Shown here one piece after another: positions 34,349 to 36,707 of a DNA stretch of 64,000 nt. Position 1 is the stretch's first letter; each line of letters begins with the position of its first letter. This DNA comes from Myxococcales bacterium (lineage in GTDB: Bacteria > Myxococcota > Myxococcia > Myxococcales > Anaeromyxobacteraceae): NCBI GenBank assembly GCA_021806645.1, contig JAJZQX010000001.1, positions 124,001 through 188,000 of the forward strand. The letters run 5' to 3'. A program made the position numbers and the translations under genes. A model generated the notes under the pieces. The model saw nothing but the letters and a program-made list of their open reading frames with translations, had not been told where the DNA came from and did no database searches.

Positions 34349-34845
34349 GGCGAGGGCGGCGAAGGACCAGACCGAGCCGCGACCGGGGTCGGGCGCCGCC
34401 GTGAGGGCGACGAACGGCGTTGCGAGGGGTGCGCGCGGTGAGCGGATGCGCGCGGTTCGGGCGACCGCGCCGGGGAGTGGTCATGGCCGGGTGGCGACGG
34501 ACGGTGCCCCGGGGATGTCACGCACTCTGGATGCGTTCTGACGCCAGATCTCGCTCGAGCGTCGAAGAAACGCCGGCGCTGGCCATCGCGAGGCGGGACC
34601 GCTGCTGCGGGGCGGGGGCAAGGGCGGACACGTACCCAGGGTCACTTCGGGCGCCCGAAGTGACCCTGGGTACGTATAGTCAACTTCCGCTGGACTTCTG
34701 AGGGCTTGCAGAGTGGCACCGAGAGTACGTCACCCACGTCGCGTGCCACCGACCGAACCGCCCGTCCTTCGGCGGGGTCGGCCCGCCACGCACCTCACGA
34801 TACGCCGCGCGGAACCGCCAGCTTAGCTCGGTCCGTCCGCCGGCG
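34349..34845. other. Non-coding region at the left edge of the accessory patch
   Basis: About 500 bp after hemD with no credible gene. It holds the 46-bp palindrome at 34630-34675. The stretch just right of it (CGTATAGTCAACTTCC) is AT-richer than the surroundings. A 93-codon frame at 34420-34701 runs through the palindrome and has Arg/Ser-rich, unconserved-looking sequence; I do not regard it as a gene. Confidence 0.5.
34630..34675. repeat. Perfect 46-bp palindrome
   Basis: The left half runs ACGTACCCAGGGTCACTTCG then GGC; the right half is its exact reverse complement, with no spacer (centre between 34652 and 34653). The central 18 bp, ACTTCGGGCGCCCGAAGT, match at 16 of 18 positions a shorter palindrome inside the HNH gene at 36044-36061. 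It could be a protein-binding site, a REP-like mobile palindrome, or a very strong terminator for the heme operon, but it lies 280 bp past hemD. Confidence 0.9.
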
Positions 34846-34926
34846 TTACCGCCTTCTCGCCTTGCCCCTCGACATCGACTGGGCAGCCGACTGGCGTTCC
34901 GCCTGGGGCGTGAAGAAGAGCTTCAC
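34846..34926 (-). pseudogene. Truncated RelE/ParE-type toxin remnant
   Basis: The frame starts at a GTG overlapping the antitoxin-like frame's TGA (GTGA at 34923-34926), a typical toxin-antitoxin junction. It gives VKLFFTPQAERQ, the usual beginning of RelE/ParE toxins, but stops after 26 codons at TAA 34846-34848. No convincing toxin core is found downstream in any frame. This is a dead toxin gene. Confidence 0.55.
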
Positions 34927-35126
34927 CCCCGGGGGAGCAGCTCCTGGATGACTGCATCGCCGTCGACGAGCTGCCCGGCGCTGGCCTGCGCCGCGCTCAG
35001 CTACAACGAGGCGTCCGGGCGAGCGCGCTCTCCGGGCTCGAAGTCGTCGTCCTCAACGACCGTGAACTCGACCTCGGTCCCATCGGGTAGCTCGGTGGGC
35101 TCATCGAGCACCACCCGTCCACCCAC
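34923..35126 (-). pseudogene. Antitoxin-like gene with an in-frame TAG
   Basis: From GTG 35126 the frame reads GRVVLDEPTELPDGTEVEF, the AbrB-like/DUF104-style start of many antitoxins next to RelE, then VVEDDDFEPGERARPDASL, a TAG at 35001-35003, and in the same frame LSAAQASAGQLVDGDAVIQ followed by ELLPRG and TGA. The part after the TAG matches the expected helical end of such antitoxins (AQAxAGQxVxxxxVIxEL). A single nonsense codon therefore splits an otherwise intact antitoxin. Confidence 0.6.
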
Positions 35127-35218
35127 AGTGCCCCTCTGGCGCAGATCGCGTAGACCGTGGCTGTGCAGATCCCGAGCTGTCCCGCTACCTGCCGGGAGGC
35201 GTTGCGAAGGGCTGCGCG
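35126..35218 (-). pseudogene. Orphan helix-turn-helix fragment (excisionase/MerR-like)
   Basis: The minus strand encodes SRQVAGQLGICTATVYAICA followed by RGAL. This is the recognition-helix pattern of excisionase-type helix-turn-helix domains, normally followed by a wing with HVRVSNxIR. Here the frame breaks into the antitoxin-like sequence right after the helix, and the flanking residues look non-coding. It appears to be a gene fragment joined to the toxin-antitoxin remnant. The remaining 35219-35402 interval holds nothing recognisable. Confidence 0.45.
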
Positions 35219-35402
35219 GTCGGGCGGAGCCGCGGGCGCGGCCGACACCGGGCGTGAGCGCGCTGGCGGTGGCGACGGTGGCGGACGTCGTTTCCGCCTG
35301 GCGTGATCGCAGGCGGTCGAAATCGCGGAATGGCCGTCCCTGTTGGGGTTCCTGCATGCCGGACACCCCGGAAATGTCAGACCCTCATGAGACGGTAGGT
35401 GA

Positions 35403-36707
35403 ATGATCGCCACCGCCCATCCGACCACTCCCTCGGCCGCGGCTTCCGCTCACGCTCCGGCCAGCCGTCCTCTCGAACTCCTGGAAGCCCGGCAGCAGCG
35501 CGATGCGCTCAAGGCCCTCTTGCGGAAGGAGCAGTCGGCGATGGCCGACTTCCTGGTCGCGCTGGCCGACTTCGACCTCTGCCGCGGCTGGGAGGCGCTG
35601 GGTCATGCCAACCTCTTCGCCTTCATCCGCTCCGAGCTGGGACTCTCGCCGGCCCCGACCTACTGGCGCCAGGAGGCAGCTCGCCTGCTCCAGCGGTTCC
35701 CGGACCTGGAGGGACCGCTGCGCCATGGCAAGCTCTGCCTGACCACGATGGCCGAGCTGGCCAAGGTGCTCACGGCGGAGAACAGGGAGGCGGTCCTGCC
35801 GCGCTTCCTCGGCATCTCCACCCGCGAGGCGAAGGAGATCGTCGCCGAGCTGCAGCCTCGCGAGGCTCCGGCCACGCGAACGATGGTGACGCGAGTGCCT
35901 GGGGTGGCGCTGGTCTCGACCGCTGCCGCCGCTTGTGGTTCGGTCGCGGCCACGCTCGAGGCCTCACCGAGGCACCCGCCGCAGACTGACATCTCCCAGC
36001 CGGCCCTCTCGCCGCCCGCCCCGACCGGAGCCCCTCCTTCGCAACTTTGGGCGCCCAAAGTGGATTTCGGGGGAGTCGTCGCGCCGGTCGCAAGGCGCGA
36101 TGAGATCGAGCCCCTCTCCGCCGATCGGAGCCGGATCCACGTCAACGTCAGCCGCCACTTCACGAGGAAGCTCGAAGCCGCGCGCTAGGGGCTCGGCCAC
36201 TCCATCCCGAATGCCACGATGGAGCAGGCGCTGGAGGCGGCGCTCGACCTGCTGCTCGAGAAGCAGGCGAAGGCGCGGGGACTGGTGAAGAAGCCGCGGA
36301 CCACGCTCGCAGCGGCCGCAGCTACCGAGGAGAGGCAAGGTGTCGACACGAGCCAGCAGGGGAGCACCCTGAGCTTGGCGCCTCAGGAATCCGAGCCACC
36401 GCTCGCACTCGTCCCGACGGAGCCGCCTTCACCTCGCCGCACCGGTCCTCGCGAAACGATCCCGGCCGCCGTCCGCCGCGCGGTCTGGGAGCGAGATGGC
36501 GGCTGCTGCAGTTGGCCTCTCGACTCGGGCGGCGTGTGCGGCTCGACGCACCGGCTGGAACTCGACCACATCCATCCCTGGGCCCGCGACGGCGAGCCCA
36601 CGGTCGCCAACATCCGCGTCGTCTGCCATGTCCACAACGCCCTGGCGGCGCGGCGCGAGTTCGGGGCGCAGTGCGCGGAGCGCTATCGACATGTTCGACG
36701 GGCCTGA
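35403..36707 (+). pseudogene. DUF222/13E12-like HNH endonuclease, interrupted by an in-frame TAG
   Basis: Read through, about 434 codons form one HNH protein. The N-terminal part (to about 160) is helical, with LGHANLFAFIRSELGLSPAP and GKLCLTTMAELAKVLTAENR. A Pro-rich linker contains an 18-bp palindrome. Then comes RIHVNVSRHFTRKLEAAR, TAG at 36186-36188, and in the same frame GLGHSIPNATMEQALEAALD and the C-terminal HNH nuclease: RRAVWERDGGCCSW, CGSTHRLELDHIHPWARDGE and NIRVVCHVHNALAARREFG. The nuclease core (LDHIHP) is intact. The 3' half could be translated from ATG 36219 as a 162-residue protein. Such proteins are often multi-copy and mobile-like. Confidence 0.75.
36044..36061. repeat. 18-bp palindrome within the HNH gene linker
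   Basis: ACTTTGGGCGCCCAAAGT is a perfect palindrome in the part of the HNH gene encoding the Pro-rich linker (LWAPKVD). It matches the core of the 46-bp palindrome at 34630-34675 except for one symmetric base pair change on each side. Confidence 0.8.

Follow-up and report, generated by a model that had tools for sequence, protein, structure and literature searches.

HNH nucleases of Anaeromyxobacter relatives seem to carry, within their own genes, a palindrome read by their DUF222 domain

The 64-kb stretch of a Myxococcales genome analysed here (hereafter the window) contains an HNH gene that is broken by an in-frame TAG (36186–36188), so that its N-terminal and linker part and its HNH part are now separate open reading frames (ORFs) on the forward strand. 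The first (35403–36188, 261 aa) ends at that TAG and comprises an N-terminal DUF222-type domain (35478–35898, forward strand, limits approximate), a disordered linker and the start of a segment termed C1; the second (36219–36707, 162 aa) holds the rest of C1, which looks ribbon-helix-helix-like, and the HNH nuclease domain (36534–36626, forward strand; Pfam PF01844, 7.9e-5, above cut-off). An intergenic, perfect 46-bp palindrome lies at 34630–34675 (left half ACGTACCCAGGGTCACTTCGGGC, right half GCCCGAAGTGACCCTGGGTACGT), in which symmetric extended arms, ACGTACCCAGGGTC, surround a core of TTCGGGC and GCCCGAA; its central 18 bp (34644–34661) read ACTTCGGGCGCCCGAAGT. A perfect 18-bp palindrome, ACTTTGGGCGCCCAAAGT, with halves ACTTTGGGC and GCCCAAAGT, occupies 36044–36061 in the linker code of the first ORF. 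Both palindromes, the difference of their cores by a single symmetric pair (C/G vs T/A) and the placement of the shorter one in the linker-coding part had been proposed beforehand, and all were borne out by sequence checks. The palindrome and the codons LSPAPTYWR, which start the predicted recognition helix (35643–35669, forward strand), are still intact in the broken gene.

The gene belongs to a multiplied family. The window's genome gave 27 matches, including ~13 near-full-length HNH paralogues as well as fragments, and matches were found in 22/24 genomes of the family, with up to 51 per genome. Residues D352, H353, C333, C343 and C372 of the HNH motif are invariant in 32 sequences, and with its D-H pair and metal-binding cysteines the protein is a predicted HNH endonuclease (PF01844); PADLOC returned weak HNH/nuclease matches and nothing more. 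In the window's genus, distances between N-terminal (N) domains are nearly uncorrelated with those between C1 segments (0.13–0.17), compared with 0.72 for C1 against HNH, which shows that gene halves have changed partners close to the linker. No such exchange is seen in genomes G006, G019 and G017 (Anaeromyxobacter sp. PSR-1), where the correlation of N with C1 is 0.95. Separately, genes L024 (G000) and L079 (G002, the congeneric MAG GL140_5) share one chromosomal place (flanks 88–89% identical) but differ in their palindromes, suggesting that one gene has replaced the other there.

Allowing ≤3 mismatches, ACTTNGGGCGCCCNAAGT occurs three times in the window against 0.26 expected, a number reached in 0/100 shuffles. 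Across the genome, the core search that had been called for recovered ACTTYGGGYRCCCRAAGT exactly in 11 copies and its reversed control in none (genome copy counts rest on searches); a pattern scan of the contigs with a 26-mer including flanks gave no match. These copies are associated with HNH genes and their flanks are conserved, being of two kinds in the window's genome, and the objection foreseen in the original prediction, that neither would be found, falls away. Among congeners, a single copy is present in G002, and 56 genomes from other genera of the family and order contained none.

The original prediction had placed the palindrome at two sites, which we correct here: nearly all full-length HNH paralogues of the window's genome, including each one aligned across this region, have a palindrome at one shared position, usually of another sequence. 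Versions in this genome include ACTTCTGACGTCAGAAGT, GCGTTTCGGACGTCCGAAACGC, AGTCCAAACGTTTGGACT, GATTCCCGACGTCGGGAATC and GTTCGTGCGCACGAAC, with two more that carry a central mismatch; other genera have TTCGGGCGCCCGAA, TTCATGCGCATGAA, GGTTCAACtGTTGAACC, CGGACTTCGCCGGCGAAGTCCG, AAAGTTCACCCGGGTGAACTTT and GAGTTTCGTCCGGACGAAACTC. A palindrome at this shared position is found in the paralogues of most lineages examined and in orthologous HNH copies of two species, which sets these sites apart from in-frame palindromic insertions of the Rickettsia type, recent arrivals in genes otherwise free of the site. In a model of the L017 protein the site encodes a disordered linker (aa 154–211, pLDDT < 50), where an extra constraint at the DNA level costs the protein little. 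HNH copies of A. oryzae Red232 (G022), A. oryzisoli SG63 (G021) and A. soli SG29 (G015) showed no clear linker palindrome and the four actinobacterial DUF222-HNH genes checked had none; for the family as a whole the site is therefore dispensable. Tandem pairs of palindromes occur in the single linkers of L067, L128 and L209 (GTTCACCCGG.., GTTCATCCGG..), distant HNH relatives from another family (L379, L397 and L398, genome G051) have a linker palindrome of the ACTTGTTCCGGAACAAGT type, and L073, L083, L146 and L154 carry a palindrome near the gene end, TTATGCCGCG..CGCGGCATAA, of up to 32 bp perfect.

The consensus of the linker site is TTC-NNN-C followed across the axis by G-NNN-GAA, with NNN varying by clade and both arms changing in step. 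Palindrome scores of at least 8 were found in 40/110 linkers, whereas 100 codon shuffles averaged 3.9, with a maximum of 10, and other parts of the HNH genes showed no excess (6 to 11). Across 42 distinct sites, TTC at −7 to −5 and C at −1 are nearly fixed and −4 to −2 are variable; these NNN positions are paired in 97%, vs 36% with right arms permuted among genes, a level that is partly circular as the sites had been chosen as palindromes. That choice affects neither the constancy of the TTC/C frame and of the position nor the protein link described below. Palindrome columns were invariant in three paralogue sets (14/14, 14/14 and 16/16) against 49%, 36% and 53% of flanking columns, and in G007 as well (22/22), but there 77% of the flanking columns are invariant too.

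Two explanations of this symmetry do without a DNA-binding protein. The 46-bp copy is predicted to fold very strongly as RNA (−48.1 kcal/mol, z −8.9), as an mRNA hairpin serving as terminator, translational control or stability element would. Symmetry and paired changes, however, continue through the central bases, of which a hairpin must loop 3–4, a pattern that suits double-stranded dimer binding; no T-run follows the 46-bp copy, and a hairpin leaves covariation with the helix-turn-helix unexplained, making this explanation very unlikely. A consensus scan at that copy found neither a sigma-70 promoter nor an intrinsic terminator. Template-switch correction of near-palindromes is an established mutation process that keeps arms matched, and could in principle make them change jointly by copying, with neither selection nor binding. 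We give it slightly less credence still, since it cannot mend the central bases, which are nevertheless paired, and gives no reason why TTC/GAA should be conserved, why the position should be constant or why the core should go with recognition residues.

Several copies are intergenic, the 46-bp palindrome among them; its extended form recurs in two others (L010 and L011, at C2:146902 and C5:127503). Five further intergenic copies in the window's genome (L001–L004 and L012) are palindrome-centred linker pieces of 42–67 bp: a ~58-bp segment of the window's gene centred on its palindrome (36018–36075, forward strand) stands elsewhere in intergenic DNA without the rest of the gene, matching L003 at 100% over 58 bp, L002 at 94% and L012 at 92%, and also L004 and L001. 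L005 and L013 are decayed HNH genes, and L010, L011, L014 and L016 each combine at least two such sites, with arms and cores recombined among copies. Some palindrome copies are also intergenic in G006, G019 and G023 and in G016 and G013. Matches to GTTCAHCCGGDTGAAC outside HNH genes were discarded in many cases as chance occurrences in coding sequence (e.g. sigma-54 activators coding FIRVNCAA), and a few are true intergenic palindromes.

Such scattered pieces, one of them identical over its 58 bp, and the recombined arms and cores (as in L016) would be expected of a mobile REP-like element lodged in the linker and elsewhere, tied to HNH genes by descent or mobilised by the HNH protein. As a general account we find this improbable: almost every full-length paralogue in the window's genus has the site at this one position, all nine genome-wide copies of the G007 palindrome in its genome (9/9) lie inside HNH genes, and simple insertion does not predict that the core covaries with recognition residues. 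The idea of an inserted REP-like element, as originally raised, holds for the loose copies, which are linker pieces dispersed between genes, and not for the in-gene site, which is long-standing across paralogues and species. REP/RAYT systems are similar in that short palindromes relate to one protein-coding gene and, in the window's genome though not in G007, are dispersed between genes, but here there is no RAYT (tyrosine) domain and the main copies sit at a fixed place inside genes; unlike the case of homing endonuclease genes, the proposed recognition site is not interrupted but intact within the coding region.

What might read the palindrome is suggested by the N-terminal domain. Pfam DUF222 (PF02720) matched 17/20 N domains (best 2.6e-6; L066 scored 25.9 bits vs a cut-off of 24.4), and the full-length L017 protein scanned alone gave HNH as its sole Pfam match, indicating that the DUF222 match is weak but real. 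In a structure search with the N-domain model (mean pLDDT 89), the top 12 rows were all DNA-binding domains of ParB, Noc, Spo0J and KorB (Z 8.7–6.3; next 3.5). Foldseek E-values were weak, near 1, and neither a single protein nor an N-domain profile found any sequence match in the PDB, so the ParB likeness is a fold resemblance: as modelled, the N domain has the ParB-superfamily helix-turn-helix DNA-binding fold, without sequence support. For the DUF222-type domain in the window this fold is predicted through homology to L017 and L066. The N-terminal CTPase domain of ParB (ParBc) was not detected, with HNH alone in the Pfam scan and the model starting at the DNA-binding helices, and we class the protein on its predicted structure as a ParB-like DNA reader, not a ParB. 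The ribbon-helix-helix-like segment after the linker weakly matches plasmid ParB (3no7) and could dimerise. In the literature naming DUF222, we found no assigned function for the domain.

The halves of parS are TGTTTCAC and GTGAAACA, and those of the Noc site, NBS, are TATTTCCC and GGGAAATA; both have a TTTC half-site in common with linker sites, and parS also has C and G flanking its axis. This parS sequence agrees with the consensus in PMC7022226. The L306 site (GGTTTCCG and CGGAAACC) has the spacing of parS, and most linker sites are 2 bp longer per half. ParB contacts parS via residues including Q162, G170–R173, N178, G201 and R204, and its specificity is switched to that of Noc by residues 173, 179, 184 and 201 (PMC7383237). 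In our own alignment, which adds 121 to L066 numbering and takes as its anchor the proline that follows the recognition helix, these ParB residues map to L066 positions 41, 49–52, 57, 80 and 83, within or next to the covarying segments described below, and L066 47–57 and 76–87 correspond to the parS-contacting ParB segments 170–178 and 201–204. The resemblance to ParB, Noc, Spo0J and KorB therefore covers the predicted fold, short palindromic sites (parS, NBS and OB in the known proteins) with TTTC/TTC half-sites and, as in ParB/Noc (PMC7383237), a few residues at corresponding segments that would change specificity; unlike ParB, these proteins have an HNH nuclease in place of a detectable CTPase domain, and their in-gene site has diversified among tens of paralogues.

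Judged by sequence comparison, the palindrome follows the N-terminal domain rather than the nearer C-terminal part. Within the gene C1 is the nearer part and the helix-turn-helix codons are farther off; even so, in G006, G019, G017 and G023 the nearest neighbour had the same core in 23/24 cases by N domain, against 14/24 by C1 and 15/24 by HNH. For the window's genus, the N domain gave a Mantel correlation with the core of 0.37 (p 0.012); the other two parts gave −0.03 and 0.09, C1 being close to zero, and nearest-neighbour core sharing showed no clear difference (15/24 for N vs 14/24 for C1). When genes with GGG palindromes (11 genes) were compared with those with ATG (4 genes), the sole fixed changes in the N domain were R41H, G45K, A50S and Y53L (L066 numbering), all within a 13-residue stretch of one helix-turn-helix (FLRRELGLSAGAAQYRK vs FLHRELKLSAGSAQLRK), a segment noticed before being tested. 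Genes L127 and L233, which have ATG palindromes and stood outside the class comparison, have the ATG-class helix, and L072 (G023) combines a GGG palindrome with the GGG helix, residue 45 excepted. The helix LSPAPT[YF]WR is found in L025 and L087, from two species, which are the sole genes with TTT replacing TTC; the LSPAPTFWR form, matching the LSPAPTYWR of the window, occurs only in L087, from the congener G002, with a palindrome that likewise reads TTT for TTC. In a later check, the protein L263/L356, from another family of the order, shared both the SKGAAHYR helix and the site GTTCAACCGGTTGAAC with L064, to which it is 55% identical. In a protein-wide scan the segments best linked to the core were L066 aa 76–87 and 47–57 (partial correlations ~0.3 vs a median of 0.05); outside these segments the N domain is likewise correlated with the core (partial r 0.37), and as the paralogues are related, part of the N-domain link is inheritance. 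That the whole link reflects physical linkage and shared ancestry is a natural suspicion for a palindrome and a domain in one gene whose paralogues form clades, but we think it has little chance of being right: the N domain is tracked better than the closer C1 in G006, G019, G017 and G023, all four fixed changes fall in one 13-residue stretch, and helix and site recur together in a 55%-identical protein from another family.

We therefore favour two of the original suggestions, that the palindrome is the protein's own target or a dimeric regulator's site, because it covaries with the helix-turn-helix of the protein encoded around it and the domain's predicted fold is that of the palindrome-binding ParB, Noc and KorB. 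The palindromes are probably bound by the very HNH proteins in whose genes they lie, many of the genes carrying the cognate site, as their position, symmetry and covariation and the predicted fold suggest; binding as a dimer is a step further, and what the binding does is less sure again. The N-terminal DUF222 domain would read its own gene's palindrome as a dimer, in a protein laid out as DUF222 reader, disordered linker, ribbon-helix-helix-like segment that could hold the dimer together and C-terminal HNH nuclease, and changes in the recognition helix would be matched by changes in both palindrome arms. For the window, 36044–36061 would be the site of the DUF222 domain encoded there, and the 46-bp palindrome an additional site of the TTCGGGC class lying between genes, with the L017 and L027 proteins as its putative partners in the genome.

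As to what binding would achieve, control of the protein's own gene, by blocking transcription through it or from nearby copies, is the leading candidate, which we put forward tentatively. I-TevI is a repressor of its own transcription, with its operator inside or next to the gene. LacI (PMC3711431) offers a roadblock precedent, repressing its own gene at its own operator O3. In both, as may be the case here, a DNA-binding protein has its site in or beside its own gene; unlike in either, the site here covaries with the protein across many paralogues of one genome and a nuclease domain is present, and repression would be by analogy. A matching second site lies upstream in L061 (−265, identical), L083 (−273, imperfect) and the window (the 46-bp copy, −786); an upstream cognate site as a general rule was rejected, being found in 2/24 genes (plus the imperfect L083), a scarcity that weakens simple promoter autoregulation. 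Second in likelihood, and somewhat more doubtful, the nuclease might nick or cut its own and sibling genes, after which repair would copy sequence from one paralogue to another, in keeping with the shuffled halves of the window's genus and with the invariance of the catalytic residues. A rather unlikely extension is that these are self-addressed selfish nucleases, whose ParB-type reader finds the own-gene palindrome, whose HNH domain cuts and whose genes are spread and shuffled by repair from siblings.

The pairing of DUF222 with HNH was already known, e.g. in the mycobacterial REP13E12 repeats, which resemble our genes in their Pfam content and in being multi-copy and dispersed (REP13E12, HNH and DUF222 are mentioned in PMC10589994); the four actinobacterial DUF222-HNH members checked differ in having no palindrome of their own. 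What is new is that a DUF222-HNH protein appears to read a palindrome in its own gene via a ParB-like domain, and dozens of related HNH enzymes of Anaeromyxobacter-type soil bacteria seem, from sequence, to carry their own reader's site in this way. Own-gene palindromes thus suggest what the large, uncharacterised DUF222 family reads. If this is true, DUF222 domains are ParB/Noc-type readers of DNA, and these genomes constitute a natural recognition code, with each protein's preferred site written in its own gene; specificity would be directly testable, the multiplication of such nucleases in genomes might be explained, and a natural library would be at hand on the joint change of DNA-binding specificity and site.

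Some HNH genes of the family have other features around them. In A. oryzae and A. soli (L179–L182, L074, L287, L311, L319, L321 and others) they lie in units of 1.8–2.1 kb with ATTCRTCACA-like terminal inverted repeats (TIRs) and 9–11-bp direct repeats outside, and no other gene was noticed in them. A direct repeat of at least 7 bp was found in 15/25 units listed, a few of which are the same unit entered twice, vs 14% in mismatched flanks; 19/20 TIR sites found adjoin an HNH gene or remnant, and several units sit within GGGGCGCAGCCCC-type sequence. As part of the rather unlikely selfish-nuclease reading, the HNH protein might even move its own transposon-like unit, with its TIRs and direct repeats, in these sister lineages. 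A common TTC had suggested that the ATTCRTCACA-like ends (A. oryzae, A. oryzisoli, A. soli and G007) are half-sites of the same reader; this was rejected because the ends are alike across proteins with different recognition helices. Subterminal inverted repeats of ~30–40 bp (GATCGGC..AAGAAGCC) lie near both unit ends in L180, L172, L173 and L067 and are similar in three species. Upstream of L198–L205, at −230 to −180, a block is kept in the divergent G016 and G013 copies (GTCCG..CGCGGAC..CAGATGGGGCGT..TTGACA), and L073 and L159 instead carry GGTCCGCGcCGCGGACC, which lies in their linkers.
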